Position numbers and translations under genes: made by a program
Shown: positions 11,088 through 20,839 of the stretch, in pieces
How the letters are laid out: every line of letters begins with the position of its first letter
How positions within the stretch are numbered: the stretch's first letter is position 1
The notes under the pieces: generated by a model
What the model saw: only the letters and a program-made list of their open reading frames with translations
What the model was told of the DNA's origin: nothing
Database searches by the model: none
Source: Halobacteria archaeon HArc-gm2
Lineage (GTDB): Archaea > Halobacteriota > Halobacteria > Halobacteriales > Haloarculaceae
NCBI GenBank assembly: GCA_025517465.1
Contig: JAOPKE010000007.1
Coordinates: 1-64,000 of the forward strand
Reading direction: 5' to 3'
Length of the DNA: 64,000 nucleotides

Positions 11088-11705
11088 TCACTCCCAGGGG
11101 TGGAACCCGCGCCGGTCGGGCCACAGCGCGTACCAGTAGTCCTTCTCTTTCTCGACGGAGAGCTCGCCGTCGAGGTTGCTCTCCAGTTTGAACTCGGCGC
11201 CGGAGTCGCGCTCGTGGTCGTCGTGGGGCTCGGGGACGAACGGGTAGTAGGCGCCGCGGCGGAAGGAGTACACCCAGTAGCCCACCAGGCCGTCGTGGTC
11301 TCGCTCGAAGGCGAAGACGGCCGCGAGCAGCCGGGAGCCGTAGCGGGCCTCGATCAGCGTGTCGGCGGCGAAGTGGATAGAGGTGACCAGGTCCTCGAAC
11401 TCCTCGTCGTGGAGGACGATCCACTGGTAGCCGTGGTCGTCGGTAGTGAACTCCGCGGTGGTGCCCGTCTCGACCTCGCCGGCGTCGAGGATGGCCTCCA
11501 CCTCGTCCATGGCGTCACGGAAGTCGGTGTTGTCCACGTCGGCGAAACACAGCGCGGCGTCGCCGGTCGGCGCGTAGCCCAGTTCGGCCTCCATTGTCAG
11601 GTAGGCCGTCGACATCCCGAACAGGTCGTCGGGGTCGGCGTCGCGGGTGGCGTCGGCCTCGGCCTTGATGCCGAGGACGCTCTTGAGGCCGTCCAACAGT
11701 CCCAT
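11088..11705 (-). CDS. pspAB: PspA-associated protein PspAB
   Basis: This 205-residue protein begins MGLLDGLKSVLGIK. It matches, from memory, the haloarchaeal PspAB family that occurs next to HtpX. The middle has paired beta strands (GYQWIVLHDEEFEDLV, ARYGSRLLAAVF) and the C-terminus the aromatic cluster YWVYSFRRGAYYPFVP and DYWYALWP. It lacks membrane spans and is probably cytoplasmic, linked to the phage-shock-like envelope stress response. It is encoded 87 bp after htpX and 2 bp before the next gene. Confidence 0.85.
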   Translation of the reverse strand: MGLLDGLKSVLGIKAEADATRDADPDDLFGMSTAYLTMEAELGYAPTGDAALCFADVDNTDFRDAMDEVEAILDAGEVETGTTAEFTTDDHGYQWIVLHDEEFEDLVTSIHFAADTLIEARYGSRLLAAVFAFERDHDGLVGYWVYSFRRGAYYPFVPEPHDDHERDSGAEFKLESNLDGELSVEKEKDYWYALWPDRRGFHPWE

Positions 11706-11792
11706 GTCCCGACTGTGGGGTGCCTGCGATAAGGTGGTTTCCGTCCCGGACCGTCGGGGTCGAGTGACGGACGGCGGTGAGCGACTGCTGAC

Positions 11793-12662
11793 TTAGAACC
11801 CTTCGAGTTCCCGTTCCAGGTCGCGCAGGCGCTCGACGCGCTTCTCCGTCGAGGGGTGGGTGCTGAACAGCTTGCCGACGACGCCGGACTTGATGGGGAT
11901 GATGAAGAACGCGTTCATCTCGGCCTGGTCGCGCATGTCCTCCTTCGGGACCTTGTCCATCCGGCCGGATATCTTCATCAGCGCCGAGGCCAGCGCGGCG
12001 GGCTTGCCGGTGATGGTCGCGCCGCCGCGGTCGGCGGCGAACTCCCGGTACCGGGAGAGCGCCCGGATCAGCAGGAAGGAGATGATCCACACCACGAGCG
12101 AGGCGAGGATGGCGACGATGACGCCACCGCCGCCCTGTCGGCGATTGCCGCCGCCGAAGAAGGCGCCCCAGCGGACGACCATGAACGCGATGGTCGAGAG
12201 GAACGAGGCGATGGTCATCACCATCACGTCACGGTTCTTGATGTGGGCGAGTTCGTGGGCGAGCACCCCTTCGAGTTCGTCCTGGTCGAGCGTGTCCATG
12301 ATGCCCGTCGTCACGGCGACGGCGCTGCTCTTCTTCGAGCGGCCCGTCGCGAAGGCGTTGGGCACGCGCGAGTCGGCCACCGCTATCTTCGGCTTGGGCA
12401 GGTCCGCCTGCTGGGAGAGCCGTTCGACCGTCCGGTGGAGCTCCGGGTACTCGGACTCGTCGACGGTCTTCGCGCCCATGGAGTACAGCGCGAGCTTGTC
12501 GCTGAAGAAGAACTGGGCGAGGAGGAAGATCGCCATCATCGGGAGCATCCAGAAGATCGAGTACTCCCAGAGGACGGCGACGAAGACGATGTAGAGGGCG
12601 AACAGCAGGAACATCGTCACCACCATCCGGGCGCGGAGTCCCCAGTCAGTTTTCCACTGCAT
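11793..12662 (-). CDS. htpX: HtpX membrane zinc metalloprotease
   Basis: This M48-family protease has 289 residues. Two N-terminal membrane segments (residues 10-60) precede the NAFATGRSKKSSAVAVTTGI motif region. The zinc site HELAH follows (GVLAHELAHIKNRDVMV, about residue 143), then two more membrane segments and the third zinc ligand region AADRGGA. HtpX degrades damaged membrane proteins with its catalytic site facing the cytoplasm. It is the first gene of an htpX-pspAB-104aa operon. The start ATG 12662 gives MQWKTDWGLRARM, typical of haloarchaeal HtpX. Confidence 0.95.
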   Translation of the reverse strand: MQWKTDWGLRARMVVTMFLLFALYIVFVAVLWEYSIFWMLPMMAIFLLAQFFFSDKLALYSMGAKTVDESEYPELHRTVERLSQQADLPKPKIAVADSRVPNAFATGRSKKSSAVAVTTGIMDTLDQDELEGVLAHELAHIKNRDVMVMTIASFLSTIAFMVVRWGAFFGGGNRRQGGGGVIVAILASLVVWIISFLLIRALSRYREFAADRGGATITGKPAALASALMKISGRMDKVPKEDMRDQAEMNAFFIIPIKSGVVGKLFSTHPSTEKRVERLRDLERELEGF

Positions 12663-12700: not shown

Positions 12701-14659
12701 TTAGTCGTTGACGCTCTCGAGGCGGTCGCTCACGGCTAGCTGGCCCGTTCCAGTGAGTTCCGTGGCGGCGTCGGCCGACCGGACGAGTTCCTTGGCGGCC
12801 AGGGATTGCAGCGCCGCGGCGAGCTCCTGCCCGGTCAGGTCCAGCAGCGAGCCCAGATCCGGCGTGCCGTCGGTGGAGTACAGCGCGACCATCACCATCT
12901 TCTCGGCGTCGGAGAGCCGGATCCCGCGGACCGTCGCCAGCGTCTGGTGGTACTCCCGGCGGACGTAGCGCCAGACCAGGCGGCGCAGGCGGTCGTCTGC
13001 GGCGGTGACGACCGTCGTCACCGGTCGATTGTCCGTGACCCTGCGAAGCTGGATGGCCGGCCGGCTCTCGCCGTCGAAACTCCGTTCGATGCGTTCGACG
13101 TCGACCACGTCCGCGAGGTCGAAGGCGAGGCGCGCCGCGTCCCCGGCCTCGTCGGTGAACGCGACGCCGTGGGGTCGGACGTACAGCACCATCTCCGCCG
13201 GGTCGGCGTCGGTGACCCGCCCGCCCTCCCGGGCCGGGTCGACGACCGTCATCGGGGTGACGTTGAGGAGGATGCGGTACAGCGCCGACGCCATGTCCCG
13301 GCGCTGGACGGGCGGGAGCTGGATGCTGACGGCGAGTTCGTCGCGGCCCGACGGCCGGTGGCCGACGGTGACTGCGTGAGGGAACGAGGCACTCAGGCGA
13401 CCGGGGACGTCGTCGATGCGGACGTCCCAGACGTCGTCGAGGGGGACCAGCAGGTGGGGCGCGTCGGCGTCCTCTGCCCCCTTCTCCTCGCTCCAGAGGA
13501 CGAACAGCTCTTCCTGGCCGAGGATGACCCGGCCGGGAATCTCGCGGCCGCCACAGAGTCCGTCGGCGGCGACGCGGGTCGAGAAGTCCGCGACGACCGG
13601 CTGGGTGACGACGTCGCGGGCGCAGGTCACGTCGGGCGCCGTCGCCTGGCCACCGCTCGTTGCGGACGGATCGTCGGGTAGGCCAGCGCGACCGCGGTCA
13701 GCACCTGCGACCGCCGACGCCCCGTCCGCTCGGATCGCGTTCTCGCTCGCGTCGGCAGCACTCGGACCCTCCGCCCACGATCCGGCGTCGGTCCGCCTGT
13801 TCGGACCACCCGCCGCGGCGTGGTCGGCCGGGTCGTAGTCCACGGACGCCGGCAGGTCGGTCGGCCGGGGGACACGCTCGGGTGCGTCGGTCGCGGTCGC
13901 TCGCTCGGCCAGCGCGTCGGCGTCGGCGGCTGCGACGTCGAACGGCTCGGACTCGTAGGCCTCGGTACCGCAGGCGGCCGGGAACGTCGATTCCGGGTCG
14001 GCGCTGCCGTCGACCCCAGCCAGGCGGGCCATCCGGGTCGTCACGTCGGACTCGCCGTCGGCGGCGTAGGGTTCGACCTGTGCCTCCTCGACGCCGAGGA
14101 CGGTCGCGGTGCCGTCGGCTTCCAGCCCCAGATCGGACAGAAAGTCGGCCGTCGTGGCGGCGAGTAGCCCCGGCGTGAGGTCGTCGGGCTCGATTCCGTC
14201 CGCGGCCTCGCCGGCGGCCCGGAGGAGTTCGCTGGCGTCGTCGGGCAGCAAATCCAGCAGGTACCGGTCGGCCGTCGCCAGCAGCGCCGCGCTGATCCGC
14301 CGTGACCAGCCGAACGGAACGGTCCGCGGTGCCCGGTCGGGCGACGGCGACCAGCACTCCTCGTAGAGCACCTCGCGGATCGGGTCCGTGTGCTCCCGGC
14401 GGCGGCGAGCCAGTTCCCAGCACCCCGCGCAGGCACAGGGGTCCTTCTCCGGGACCCGTATCTCGGCGCGCTCCCAGTCGATCCACCCCTCGTTGCAGTG
14501 CAGCGCCTCCTCGAGGGTAAGTCCCAGCCGGCCGGTCAGCAGGACCAGCGTCGCGGCACGGCTCCGCTCGACGTCCGACTCGAGCCCCAGCGCACCCCTG
14601 TACAGCCGCTCGAACGACCCCGGATCGAGCGTCTCCCCCGGGTCCACCCAGTCGTGCAT
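12701..14659 (-). CDS. Fusion: inactive tyrosine-recombinase-like domain plus CheF domain
   Basis: This protein of about 652 residues has an unusual make-up. Residues 15-200 follow the pattern of haloarchaeal phage-type integrases (LLTGRLGLTLEEALH, WIDWERAEIRVP, DPCACAGCW, LTPGLLAATTADF). However, the first catalytic Arg position is Thr in GLTLEEA and the HxxR motif is replaced by PGLLAAT, so strand cleavage is not expected. A disordered Ala/Asp/Ser-rich linker fills about 200-360. The remainder resembles CheF, the archaeal adaptor between chemotaxis proteins and the archaellum: VVADFSTRV, PAREGGRVTDADP, LSDAEKMVMVALYS and the closing LESVND. ATG 14659 is preferred over GTG 14662. No chemotaxis gene is nearby. 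Confidence 0.85.
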   Translation of the reverse strand: MHDWVDPGETLDPGSFERLYRGALGLESDVERSRAATLVLLTGRLGLTLEEALHCNEGWIDWERAEIRVPEKDPCACAGCWELARRRREHTDPIREVLYEECWSPSPDRAPRTVPFGWSRRISAALLATADRYLLDLLPDDASELLRAAGEAADGIEPDDLTPGLLAATTADFLSDLGLEADGTATVLGVEEAQVEPYAADGESDVTTRMARLAGVDGSADPESTFPAACGTEAYESEPFDVAAADADALAERATATDAPERVPRPTDLPASVDYDPADHAAAGGPNRRTDAGSWAEGPSAADASENAIRADGASAVAGADRGRAGLPDDPSATSGGQATAPDVTCARDVVTQPVVADFSTRVAADGLCGGREIPGRVILGQEELFVLWSEEKGAEDADAPHLLVPLDDVWDVRIDDVPGRLSASFPHAVTVGHRPSGRDELAVSIQLPPVQRRDMASALYRILLNVTPMTVVDPAREGGRVTDADPAEMVLYVRPHGVAFTDEAGDAARLAFDLADVVDVERIERSFDGESRPAIQLRRVTDNRPVTTVVTAADDRLRRLVWRYVRREYHQTLATVRGIRLSDAEKMVMVALYSTDGTPDLGSLLDLTGQELAAALQSLAAKELVRSADAATELTGTGQLAVSDRLESVND

Positions 14660-14754
14660 CACTTGCTATCGTCGATCATGCTATATGAAACGTGGCGACT
14701 GTTCGCACGAGTGATACTGGGATTTATCGGTGTTCTCCCCCTTGGAACGGATAG

Positions 14755-16284: not shown

Positions 16285-18174
16285 TTACTCCATCCGACGC
16301 TTCCGCCAGCGCAGCGTCAAGATCAGCAGTTCGAAGCCGACGATCAGGCCCGCGGTGACGGCCACGGCCTCGCTCTGGGGCAGCGCGAGCGCCTCGACGG
16401 TCTGGAGGCCCGGCGGGTTCGGGCTGGCGAAGTAGCCGACGACCAGCGCGAGGATCCAGTAGGGGACCCGGGCGCGGTTGACGACGTCCCAGACGCGGAC
16501 GTTCCGCGAGTAGTTGCGGACCCCGTAGGCCAGCAGTTCGAACAGCAGTATCAGGACGACGGCGGTGATGATCGGCGTCATCGGCCGCAGTTCGTTGAAC
16601 GCCAGCGTCGACTTGACGATGGCCGGGAACCGGTCGTAGTAGCTGCCGGGTAGCGGCGCCGCGCTGGCGAGGTAGCCCGCGGCGACGGCCAGCGCCCAGG
16701 CGTAGGGCCGCCGTTCGGCGAAGGCCGCCGGTGAGAACAGCGGCGAGTCGCTGTCGGTCCAGCGGAGCAAGAATAGCGTCCCCTCGAACAGGCCGATCAT
16801 CGTGACGGCGACCATCAGCGGCGCCATCCCGGTCGGGTCGGGGCTGAACACGAACGCCAGCGCACCGAACCCACCCCAGAAGTACAGCCGGCGGTCTTCG
16901 AGCCACCGCCGAGTGGTGACGCCCATCATGATGGCGAGCATCACGAGCAGCGGGATCTGGAAGACGATGGCGAAAAAGCCGATCATCAGGACGATGAGGT
17001 TGAACGTCTCCGTCAGGCCGAAGGCGATCTCGGCGGCCTGCTCACTGTAGTTCGTGAAGTACGAGAACATCGCCGGCAGGACGGCGAAGTAGGCGAACCC
17101 GACGCCGACGGTCGCGAGCACCAGGCTCGTCGGGACCGCCGCGAGGTAGTACCGGCGCTCGCGGGGGTAGAGTCCGGGGCGCATGAACCGGTAGGTCTGG
17201 TAGACGGCGACCGGGAGCGCGGCGATGATCCCGACCAGCGAGGCGACTTTCAGGCGTGCGAGCACGAGCGCGAGCGGGTGGTAGATCCGCGGGCTCACGG
17301 AGTCCGGGCACGCCTCGGTGACGGAGAGTCGCCCGCCCAGGAACGAACCCTCCAGGCAGGTCTGCTGGCCGGGGCCAAGGAAGGAGTACCAGAGGAAGTT
17401 GATCAGTTCGTCCGCGTAGAACAGTGTGATGGCGCCGACGCCGACCACGACGAGGCCGACGGCCATAAAGCGAAGGGCCATCTCCTCGACGTGTTCGGTG
17501 AGCGGCATCTCCTCGTCGTCGGGCGCCGTCGCGCCGCCGAGTGCGCCACCGCCACCACCGCCACCACCGCCGGCGCCGGCAGCGACTGGCTCGTGGCCAG
17601 CGGGGCCGCCGGGCGCCGCCTCGTTCCTGACTGCCGACGCCTCGCTGGGACCGATCTCGTACGCTTCGTCGTCCGCGTCGTCCTTGTCGTCGTCCGCGTC
17701 GTCCGCATCGTCGTCGTCGCCGTCGGCAGAACCGGACGGGTCGGCGGCGGTGATCTCGTCGCCGGTGACCTCGTCGGTATCGCTCTCGTCACCGCCGTCT
17801 CTCTCGTCGTCGGCACCTGCATCGGCCTCGGCGCTCTCGCCGTCACCCTCGGATTCGTCGTCACCGGACTCCTGTTTGACCTCCTCGACCCAGTCGGGCG
17901 GCTCTCTGCCCTCGGTGTAGTCGCTCGGGTCGCCCATCTTGCCGTCGAAGTCGATCGAGGACTGCTCCCGGTAGGAGTCCGAGGACTCCTCGGTGTCCTC
18001 TTCGACCTCGGTGTCGTTCGCGATCCCGGCGTCATTCTCGTTCCCGTCGTCGGCCTCCACTTCGGTATCGTCTCTGGCCCCGGCGTCGTCTCCGGGATCG
18101 TCGTCGGGATCGCCGCCGCTGGCACCCGCTGGCCCGTCGTCCTCGCCCGGCTCGGTGTCTCGGCGATCGCCCAT
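16285..18174 (-). CDS. tatCo: Twin-arginine translocase TatC, single-domain type with acidic extension
   Basis: This 629-residue protein carries one TatC domain. The first 215 residues are a very acidic, Asp/Glu/Ser-rich extension ending in a poly-Gly run. The TatC domain starts at MPLTEHVEEMALRF and contains the conserved cytoplasmic Glu of the first loop, PVAVYQTYRFMRPGLYPRERR and six membrane helices. Two or three extra C-terminal helices follow. TatC binds RR signal peptides and exports folded proteins, the main secretion route in haloarchaea. It is divergent from the doubled tatCt gene, matching the known haloarchaeal pair. The size of the acidic tail is larger than I recall for the family. 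Confidence 0.92.
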   Translation of the reverse strand: MGDRRDTEPGEDDGPAGASGGDPDDDPGDDAGARDDTEVEADDGNENDAGIANDTEVEEDTEESSDSYREQSSIDFDGKMGDPSDYTEGREPPDWVEEVKQESGDDESEGDGESAEADAGADDERDGGDESDTDEVTGDEITAADPSGSADGDDDDADDADDDKDDADDEAYEIGPSEASAVRNEAAPGGPAGHEPVAAGAGGGGGGGGGALGGATAPDDEEMPLTEHVEEMALRFMAVGLVVVGVGAITLFYADELINFLWYSFLGPGQQTCLEGSFLGGRLSVTEACPDSVSPRIYHPLALVLARLKVASLVGIIAALPVAVYQTYRFMRPGLYPRERRYYLAAVPTSLVLATVGVGFAYFAVLPAMFSYFTNYSEQAAEIAFGLTETFNLIVLMIGFFAIVFQIPLLVMLAIMMGVTTRRWLEDRRLYFWGGFGALAFVFSPDPTGMAPLMVAVTMIGLFEGTLFLLRWTDSDSPLFSPAAFAERRPYAWALAVAAGYLASAAPLPGSYYDRFPAIVKSTLAFNELRPMTPIITAVVLILLFELLAYGVRNYSRNVRVWDVVNRARVPYWILALVVGYFASPNPPGLQTVEALALPQSEAVAVTAGLIVGFELLILTLRWRKRRME

Positions 18175-18286
18175 CTGTCCCGGGTTTGGCTACTCGCTGT
18201 TGTAAACTTTCTTTTCCCGCGGCCCGGCGCGGACCGGAGTCCTGATGAACAAATTGATAACGGGCAGCGGGCTACCAACGGCAAAG
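18175..18286. promoter_or_regulatory. Divergent tatCo/tatCt promoter region
   Basis: Only about 110 bp separate the two likely starts. The minus-strand AAAGTTTAC at about 18205-18213 lies about 35 bp before the tatCo ATG, and the plus-strand ACAAATTGATAAC at about 18247-18259 lies about 30 bp before ATG 18287. The shared region suggests joint control. Confidence 0.5.
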
Positions 18287-20839
18287 ATGGCGAGTGGGCT
18301 CGACGAGGACACGATGCGGACGGTCCAGAGCGGTCGGGAGACCGCCGGGACCATGCTCCGGACCGCCCAGAAGCACCTGCAGAAGGTGTTCATCGTCTGG
18401 GTGGTCGTCCTGCTCGCGACCATCATGGTCCTGCAGAACTTCCTGTGGGAGCAACTCCGCCGCGACCTGCTGTACTCGAAGATGGACCTGACGACGTCGC
18501 AGGCCTCCGAGATCATCGCCGTGACGCCGTTCGACGTCATCCTGCTACAGGTGAAGATCGGCGCCGTCGCCGGGATACTCGTCGCGCTGCCGATCCTGAT
18601 CTATCTCAGCCGCGACGCGCTGCGCGAACGAGGGTACTGGCCCGGCGACGAGGTGGCGACGTGGAAGATCGGCGCCATCGGAGTCACCAGCCTCGCCCTG
18701 TTCGTCGGCGGCGTCGTGTACGCGTACGAACTGTTCTTCCCCCTGATGTTCGGCTTCCTTGCCGAGAACGCGCTGAACGCGGACTTCCAGCCCAACTACT
18801 CCATCGTGCTGTGGGTCCAGTTCATCGCGTTGCTGGGGATGTCGTTCGGGCTGGCGGCCCAGATGCCGCTGATGATGAGCGCGCTCAGCTACTCCGGCAT
18901 CGTCCCCTACGAGACGTTCCGGGACCGCTGGAAGTGGGCCGTCGTCGCCATCTTCGGCTTCGGCGCCCTGTTCTCGCCGCCGGACCCGTTCACGCAGATC
19001 ATGTGGGCCGCGCCGCTCGTGGGTCTGTACGCGATCAGTCTCGGCATCTCGAAGATGCTCGTCCAGGCCAAACGCGCCGGCGAGGAGGTCAGTGCCCGGT
19101 CGGTCGCCCGGACGCGCTGGAACAAACTCGCCGCCGCCGCGCTGGTCGTCGGCGCGCTCGTCACCTACGTCATCGCCTCGCCGGTCACGTTCGGGTACAT
19201 CCAGCGCTTTGCCGCCTGGTTCCCCTCGGACGAACTCACCGGCGACATCCAGCAACCGGCCTGGTTCGGCCTTCCCCCAGAGACGACCGCGCTGATCATC
19301 GGTGCGGCCTTCGGGCTGGTCGCGGCCGTCCTGGTGCTGTACTACTACATGATCCAGGAACTCGGCGTCGCCGCCGCCGAGGCCGGGAACTTCGGCGACC
19401 CGACCGCCATCGACGTCGGGGCGCTCTCGGCCGACGCGGTCCGGGCGGCCCCCCGCGAGGCCTTCGAGGAGATGGAGGAGTCCGAGGCGCTCAAGCTGGC
19501 CGACCAGGCCATGAGCGACGACGACACGGACAAGGCCCAGGCCATCCTCGACCGGTTCGACCAGATCCACGATGGTGACGCCGAGGCCGCCGAGGTCGGC
19601 GACGGCGTCGAGGGGCCAGCCGAACCCGAGGCCGAGGAGGAAGGCAGCGTCTTCACCGAGACCTCCGCGGGGATGCTCAACGCCTTCACGGAGGAGGAGA
19701 CCACCGAGGACGACATCGGCGGCTACTACCACGACCTGGCCTTTATCTTCGACTCGCTCACCTCGAAGGCCATCTGGTTCGTCGCGACGTTCATGATCGT
19801 CACGAGCGTCGTCTTCGTCTTCCTCTACTCGGGCATTCCCGGCGCCGGCGCCGCGGCGATGGCCGACGGCGGGACCGTCATCGCGGAGAACGGCACCGTC
19901 GTCGCCGAGGACGTCGACGTGCTCAACGAGGGCGTCACGGTCCTCTCTCGCAACGAGACGAGCGGACGGGCAGACGCCGTCGCGAGTAACGCCGTCCTGA
20001 CGACGCGGGAGGGGGCCGGGGACTCCGGGGCGAGACCGAGCACAGCCGTGCTGCAAAACGATTCCGTCCTGCTGTACAACGCGACGGTGACTGGCCAGAA
20101 CATCTCGGAGCCCGGAGGCCCCTACCGGATCGAGAACGCGACCGTGCTGGTCCAGCAAGAACCCGTCGTCGACACTACCTCTGGCATCGGCATCATCAAG
20201 AACGCCTTCGTCTCCCACCTCCCGCCGGAGATGCAAGAGGACGTCCGCTTCATCACGCTCCACCCCGTCGAGCACCTCATCTTCATCGTGAAGTTCTCGA
20301 CCATCATGGGCGCCATCTCCGTCGTGCCGCTCCTGCTGTACTTCGCCTGGCCCGCCATGGAGAAGCGGGGGCTCGTCGGCGGTGACCGGAACGTGCTCGG
20401 CGTGTGGGGCGGCACCGTCTTCCTCACCCTCATCGGCGGGAGCCTCATCGGGTTCCTCTACGTCGCGCCGACGGTCATCTCCTGGCTCGCCTACGACGTC
20501 CTCCAGGCGGACATGATCATCTCCTACCGCGTCGCCAAGTTCGGGTGGCTGGTGCTCATGTTCACCGTCGGCGTCGGCCTCCTCATCGAGGTGCCGGTGA
20601 CGATGCTGCTGTTCCACCGCGGCGGCATCGTCCCCTTCCAGACGCTCCAGGAGCGCTGGCGGACCATCACGCTGGGCGTGTTCGCTGCTTGTGCCCTGTT
20701 CTCACCGAAAGATATCTGGACGATGTTCCTTGTGGCCGTGCCGGTCACCATCTCCTTCCTGGTCGGCCTCGCTCTGCTGTGGATATACACCCTGGGCGGT
20801 CGGCGCGCGCCCAAGGCCAGCCGGAAGGCCGCGGACTGA
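18287..20839 (+). CDS. tatCt: Doubled TatC translocase subunit (two fused TatC domains)
   Basis: This protein of about 850 residues has two TatC domains, the form known only in haloarchaea. ATG 18287 is preferred to 18245 because an AT-rich promoter-like box lies between them. Domain 1 spans roughly residues 30-340 (with REREGYWPG-like RERGYWPGDEV and the RAKR loop). An acidic linker of about 130 residues follows. Domain 2 has AMEKRGLVGGDRN and continues to the end. A pair of extracellular stretches rich in NGT/NET may be glycosylated. It works with TatA and TatCo to export RR-signal proteins such as the NirK and GH5 enzymes encoded in this window. Confidence 0.93.
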   Translation: MASGLDEDTMRTVQSGRETAGTMLRTAQKHLQKVFIVWVVVLLATIMVLQNFLWEQLRRDLLYSKMDLTTSQASEIIAVTPFDVILLQVKIGAVAGILVALPILIYLSRDALRERGYWPGDEVATWKIGAIGVTSLALFVGGVVYAYELFFPLMFGFLAENALNADFQPNYSIVLWVQFIALLGMSFGLAAQMPLMMSALSYSGIVPYETFRDRWKWAVVAIFGFGALFSPPDPFTQIMWAAPLVGLYAISLGISKMLVQAKRAGEEVSARSVARTRWNKLAAAALVVGALVTYVIASPVTFGYIQRFAAWFPSDELTGDIQQPAWFGLPPETTALIIGAAFGLVAAVLVLYYYMIQELGVAAAEAGNFGDPTAIDVGALSADAVRAAPREAFEEMEESEALKLADQAMSDDDTDKAQAILDRFDQIHDGDAEAAEVGDGVEGPAEPEAEEEGSVFTETSAGMLNAFTEEETTEDDIGGYYHDLAFIFDSLTSKAIWFVATFMIVTSVVFVFLYSGIPGAGAAAMADGGTVIAENGTVVAEDVDVLNEGVTVLSRNETSGRADAVASNAVLTTREGAGDSGARPSTAVLQNDSVLLYNATVTGQNISEPGGPYRIENATVLVQQEPVVDTTSGIGIIKNAFVSHLPPEMQEDVRFITLHPVEHLIFIVKFSTIMGAISVVPLLLYFAWPAMEKRGLVGGDRNVLGVWGGTVFLTLIGGSLIGFLYVAPTVISWLAYDVLQADMIISYRVAKFGWLVLMFTVGVGLLIEVPVTMLLFHRGGIVPFQTLQERWRTITLGVFAACALFSPKDIWTMFLVAVPVTISFLVGLALLWIYTLGGRRAPKASRKAAD

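Follow-up and report, generated by a model that had tools for sequence, protein, structure and literature searches.

A haloarchaeal CheF paralogue fused to a tyrosine-recombinase domain that lacks most of its catalytic residues

The fusion gene and its surroundings

We analyzed the first 64,000 nucleotides of contig JAOPKE010000007.1 from Halobacteria archaeon HArc-gm2, hereafter the window. A gene at 12701–14659 on the reverse strand encodes a protein of 652 amino acids composed of a dead tyrosine-recombinase domain, a linker and a CheF domain; all features of the fusion gene given below lie on this strand. An earlier note, made from the sequence alone, had proposed an inactive integrase-like domain fused to the chemotaxis adaptor CheF. 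PF04283 matches, profile comparisons with hhalign and predicted structures bear this out, and every motif that the note quoted occurs in the translation. The start codon is ATG, and a GTG three bases before it, at 14662, is an alternative. A TATA-like ATATAG, read by eye at 14681–14686 (reverse strand), lies about 22–27 nt 5' of the ATG, a spacing that would fit a leaderless transcript in haloarchaea.

An M48 (HtpX-type) peptidase gene (11793–12662, reverse strand) starts 38 bp downstream of the fusion gene, and the two are possibly co-transcribed, in the window's genus only. A PspAB gene adjoins this peptidase gene 3' of the fusion gene (11088–12662 for the two) and may share its transcript. 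Two divergent TatC genes (16285–18174 and 18245–20839), one with two TatC matches, are located beside a TspO gene. Among the loci compared, the M48 peptidase, PspAB, epimerase, TspO and TatC neighbours are common only to a relative from the same genus. Fusion-locus neighbours differ between genera and are syntenic within them, and no conserved neighbour or operator for the fusion gene was evident in these loci. We considered a mobile-element setting, which this pattern of unrelated neighbours between genera and synteny within them does not support. The phage and plasmid records searched contained only stand-alone integrases and no fusion. In genome G254, the site of an integrase matches its site on a plasmid of Haloprofundus halobius, and family group f4 is therefore probably Haloferacaceae.

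We profiled CheF, ArlD/E and response regulators and found no che or arl neighbours from these families at the fusion locus. Apart from the fusion gene itself, all matches lie outside the window, in agreement with the earlier note. The host genome encodes four other CheFs, ArlD/E and a likely CheY, all on contigs C1 and C11. Location in a che region is usual but not strictly defining for CheF, and the fusion gene is not located in one.

The N-terminal domain has a tyrosine-recombinase fold

Residues 1–208 (14036–14659) are predicted by hhalign and by AlphaFold and fold matches to form a tyrosine-recombinase catalytic domain. Alone, the N domain (residues 1–213) gave no significant match in single-sequence searches of Pfam, NCBIfam, PADLOC and PDB sequences; matches to Lentivirus_VIF (E 0.12) and HigA (E 0.06) were discarded as noise. 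Genome searches revealed homologous stand-alone haloarchaeal recombinases of about 230 amino acids (E ~1e-13 to 1e-25), and PF00589 (Phage_integrase) is matched by 18/18 of these relatives. Comparison of the N-domain alignment with the alignment of the 18 stand-alone proteins gave an hhalign probability of 100 (E 2e-39). The AlphaFold model of the domain (pLDDT 87.7, pTM 0.85) matches XerA, XerH, Tn1549 Int and an S. aureus integrase (Foldseek probability 1.00; VIA Z up to 14.9), and the phage repressor SroF is also among the fold matches (Z 11.7). The recombinase match expected for residues 1–200 was thus obtained by both hhalign and AlphaFold/Foldseek, and these profile and predicted-structure matches place the domain in the PF00589 family by fold and homology.

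The catalytic fold begins at about residue 5, with no core-binding domain upstream, and the stand-alone relatives found here likewise lack this domain. The net charge of the N domain is -22 in the window protein and mostly negative in other fusions, versus about 0 in active relatives. Of ten positions that are Lys or Arg in at least 80% of active relatives, seven are lost in the window protein. DNA binding by residues 1–208 is made less likely by the absence of a core-binding domain, the acidic charge and the loss of these basic positions. C75-x-C77-x2-C80 (14420–14437) and His54 (14498–14500) form a putative His-Cys3 metal site. All four residues are invariant across the window protein and all 35 aligned relatives of this haloarchaeal recombinase group, whether active, membrane-tailed or dead, and the set looks structural.

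The linker (residues 209–345; 13625–14035) is mostly of low complexity and variable in length among fusions. It carries a conserved motif, YESEPFD...VPRP...DYDPADH (13820–13957), that is common to a set of membrane-tailed recombinase-like proteins.

Loss of the catalytic residues

We scored the catalytic set R, E, K, H, R, W and Y, which is invariant in 18/18 stand-alone relatives. The window protein has T, E, S, G, A, a gap and Y at these positions, and only Glu51 and Tyr198 remain. The former Arg I box, GLTLEEA (14504–14524), has T48 in place of Arg; the former beta-hairpin Lys position lies in WSPS (residues 103–106; 14342–14353) and is now S106; and the former HxxR box, TPGLLAAT (14153–14176), has G164 for His and A167 for Arg. 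The His/Trp position is deleted in the window copy. The loss of the catalytic Arg and HxxR residues that had been claimed earlier is therefore confirmed, and Lys and His/Trp are lost too. Tyr198 (14066–14068) aligns with the catalytic Tyr and is retained only in the window protein and two other fusions.

Across the 16 fusions scored, Lys and His/Trp are each absent in 16, His in 15, Tyr in 13, the first Arg in 6 and the second Arg in 3. Seven further fusions, found later by profile, served as an out-of-sample check, and all seven lack Lys and Trp. In each of the first nine fusions, Lys and the second Arg of a conserved RR pair are lost. Judged by the residues that define a tyrosine-recombinase enzyme (R, D/E, K, H, R, H/W, Y), the window protein does not belong to this class.

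The C-terminal half is a complete CheF

CheF is known to connect phosphorylated CheY (CheY-P) to the archaeal motor, and multiple copies are common in haloarchaea. Residues 343–652 correspond to a full CheF. PF04283 (CheF-arch) matches residues 356–571 with an E value of 2.2e-21 and 77 bits, against a curated cut-off of 25, and the match spans positions 2–217 of 218. A profile of the CheF half retrieves the CheF crystal structure 7ovp at 3e-18. The first PDB match of its AlphaFold model (pLDDT 87.6) is also 7ovp (E 3.5e-12), followed by double-PH proteins. The CheF identity that had been claimed for the C-terminal part thus stands on both PF04283 and 7ovp. As in 7ovp, the model predicts two PH-like domains, which are also covered by PF04283 (residues ~356–460 at 13280–13594 and ~461–554 at 12998–13279), and a helical C-terminal domain that ends in LESVND (residues ~555–652; 12704–12997).

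We compared the fusion CheFs with canonical CheFs and found that the C-terminal domain is closest, at 0.69 of the canonical–canonical identity, whereas the two PH domains reach 0.52 and 0.57. The C-terminal domain also has a weak winged-helix-like similarity to MarR-type regulators. The VN-type (VND) tail is kept in most fusions and lost in those of genomes G050, G024, G012 and G510, so some fusions may not bind CheY-P. Studied CheF dimerises and binds CheY-P by way of this C-terminal domain, and its PH-like domains are presumed to face ArlCDE (PMC9126983). A CheF with GFP on its N-terminus remains functional (PMC9126983), and an extra N-terminal domain should therefore be tolerable. From sequence, we infer that the CheF part of the fusion may likewise bind CheY-P and dimerise.

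Distribution, phylogeny and selection

At least 16 species, from eight genera and two family groups within one order, have the domain arrangement of dead recombinase, EPFD/PRP/DYDP linker and CheF. This count takes in G212, with a frameshift in the linker, and leaves out G013, from a ninth genus, with an internal deletion. The fusions score clear of all other profile matches, with E values of at most 4e-67 versus at least 4e-41. The earlier note had suggested a search for the same domain order in other haloarchaea; its recurrence in 16 species excludes chance, and the fusion is not a local accident.

Phylogenetic analyses revealed that the N domains of the fusions form one clade (support 99/95). 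The closest proteins outside it are recombinase-like, with the linker motif of the fusions and a C-terminal hydrophobic helix. The fusion CheF domains also cluster in one clade (100/99), apart from one CheF-only paralogue of G024, whose placement (p-AU 0.054) means that this clade is not strictly pure. The G024 gene (locus L065, 8224–9141; PF04283 E 5e-19) adjoins the fusion and sits on a long branch within this clade. It is perhaps a duplicate that has lost the front domain. A single origin of the fusion is the simplest reading.

Between the window protein and its 94% relative, a single pair, dN/dS was 0.23 for the N domain, 0.17 for the linker and 0.15 for CheF. Judged from this pair, the fusion protein is maintained by purifying selection. 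ArlD/E genes and other CheFs were present in 9/9 fusion genomes checked; arl genes occur in 74% of genomes in the order, so this co-occurrence (p ~0.07) is too weak for proof, and it is consistent with a motility role. In G013, a draft genome that is 81% complete and whose fusion gene has the internal deletion, no arl gene was found.

Origin and possible function

We are close to certain that the fusion is an accessory CheF paralogue with a domesticated, cleavage-dead tyrosine-recombinase front end. The ancestral recombinase, which probably had the conserved EPFD/PRP/DYDP tail already, would then have been fused with a CheF duplicate; early loss of the catalytic Lys and His/Trp was probably followed by further decay in separate lineages. 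That the product still acts in motility is suggested by the conservation of its CheF half and by the arl genes of fusion genomes.

Our preferred reading, to which we give a little less than an even chance, is an accessory CheY-P-binding CheF adaptor with the dead recombinase domain as a docking module. As in known CheF, the C-terminal domain of the CheF part would mediate both dimerisation and the binding of phospho-CheY. The recombinase domain would be a docking module on a flexible linker, its shape maintained by the conserved core and the putative metal site, and would bring either CheY-P or the archaellum switch together with a second partner or site. Ordinary CheFs, which switch the motor, could thereby meet competition from the fusion or be retuned by it. 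The position of the gene away from che and arl clusters, with neighbours that change from genus to genus, and the loss of the VND tail in some fusions count against this reading. If it holds, CheY-P signalling would gain a concrete second target or a cue for localisation.

We weighed this adaptor against a chemotaxis-responsive DNA-binding regulator, in which the dead recombinase binds specific DNA and CheY-P on the CheF part alters its binding or location. The repressor MrpR is a precedent for a dead tyrosine-recombinase fold in this role (PMC10516654). The SroF fold match, the weakly winged-helix-like CheF C-terminal domain and the retention of the second Arg in 13/16 fusions and the first in 10/16 also speak for it. 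However, unlike MrpR the fusion has no core-binding domain, the N domain is strongly acidic where active relatives are near neutral, the first nine fusions have all lost Lys and the second Arg of the RR pair, and a conserved neighbour or operator is not evident. We regard such a regulator as the main rival but as unlikely, at perhaps half the weight of the adaptor. Slightly less probable still is that the recombinase domain serves as a CheY-P-gated DNA- or nucleoid-binding module; if it did, chemotaxis signals would reach not only the motor but also, directly, the genome, with effects on its expression or positioning.

The CheF part might instead act as a sink that titrates phospho-CheY, with the N domain altering only stability or solubility. 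This would fit the better conservation of the CheY-P-binding C-terminal domain relative to the more diverged PH-like, motor-docking domains. It requires less than is observed, since the N-domain core and linker motif are conserved in 16 species and the N domain is under purifying selection, and we consider it improbable. That the fusion is functionless and decaying, kept by chance, seems very improbable: the patchy distribution, the frameshifted G212 gene and the internally deleted G013 gene point that way, but reading frames are open in nearly all of 16 species over two families and dN/dS is well below 1 in every part. A still active or conditionally active recombinase, targeted to the cell pole by its CheF tail, has a barely appreciable probability. 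Tyr198 persists in the window protein, and the sister group with intact catalytic residues has C-terminal membrane helices, but the catalytic-residue table of the 16 fusions, with Lys and His/Trp gone throughout, led us to reject it.

Comparison with known systems

No CheF–recombinase fusion is described in the literature searched, as the earlier note had supposed; other literature or domain databases may differ, and the fusion appears to be new to description. Like the fusion, CheF proteins (DUF439, PF04283) have two PH-like domains and a helical C-terminal domain, matched over the full length. Canonical haloarchaeal CheFs have about 290–310 amino acids, lack the N-terminal part and are mostly found in che regions (PMC2666748), whereas the fusion has some 340 extra residues, is located elsewhere and is divergent (~30% identity). 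A 2009 survey recorded only two CheF paralogues outside che regions, both in H. marismortui (PMC2666748).

The N domain is related to haloarchaeal PF00589 recombinases without a core-binding domain, such as those of Halorussus and Natrinema plasmids and halovirus HCTV-5. Over about 200 residues they have the fold, the core motifs and the His-Cys3 set in common with it. All seven catalytic residues are kept in these proteins, whereas most are missing from the fusion, in which a linker and CheF follow the domain. Its nearest relatives are the membrane-tailed recombinase-like proteins of G075, G300, G365, G250 and G378, which share the EPFD/PRP/DYDP linker but have intact catalytic residues in most cases and carry, where the fusion has CheF, a hydrophobic helix at the C-terminus. 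Tyrosine-recombinase proteins of about 480–550 amino acids with mostly intact catalytic residues, the EPFD/DYDP linker and one or two C-terminal hydrophobic helices are encoded at loci L069 (4342–5814 in G075), L083, L084, L085 and L086 and are possibly membrane-anchored. The L069 gene is near a serine-recombinase-like gene.

MrpR (YopR), the master repressor of SP-beta, has a tyrosine-recombinase fold with lost Arg and His residues and binds DNA (PMC10516654). Like the fusion, it lacks recombinase activity, and in MrpR the fold is reused for regulation (PMC10516654). Unlike the fusion, it has a core-binding domain, binds DNA, keeps Lys and Tyr and has no CheF part. We interpret the conserved CheF–recombinase lineage as a mobile-element protein recruited into a motility signalling family, which adds an archaeal case, perhaps one of protein docking, to the dead recombinases reused as regulators.
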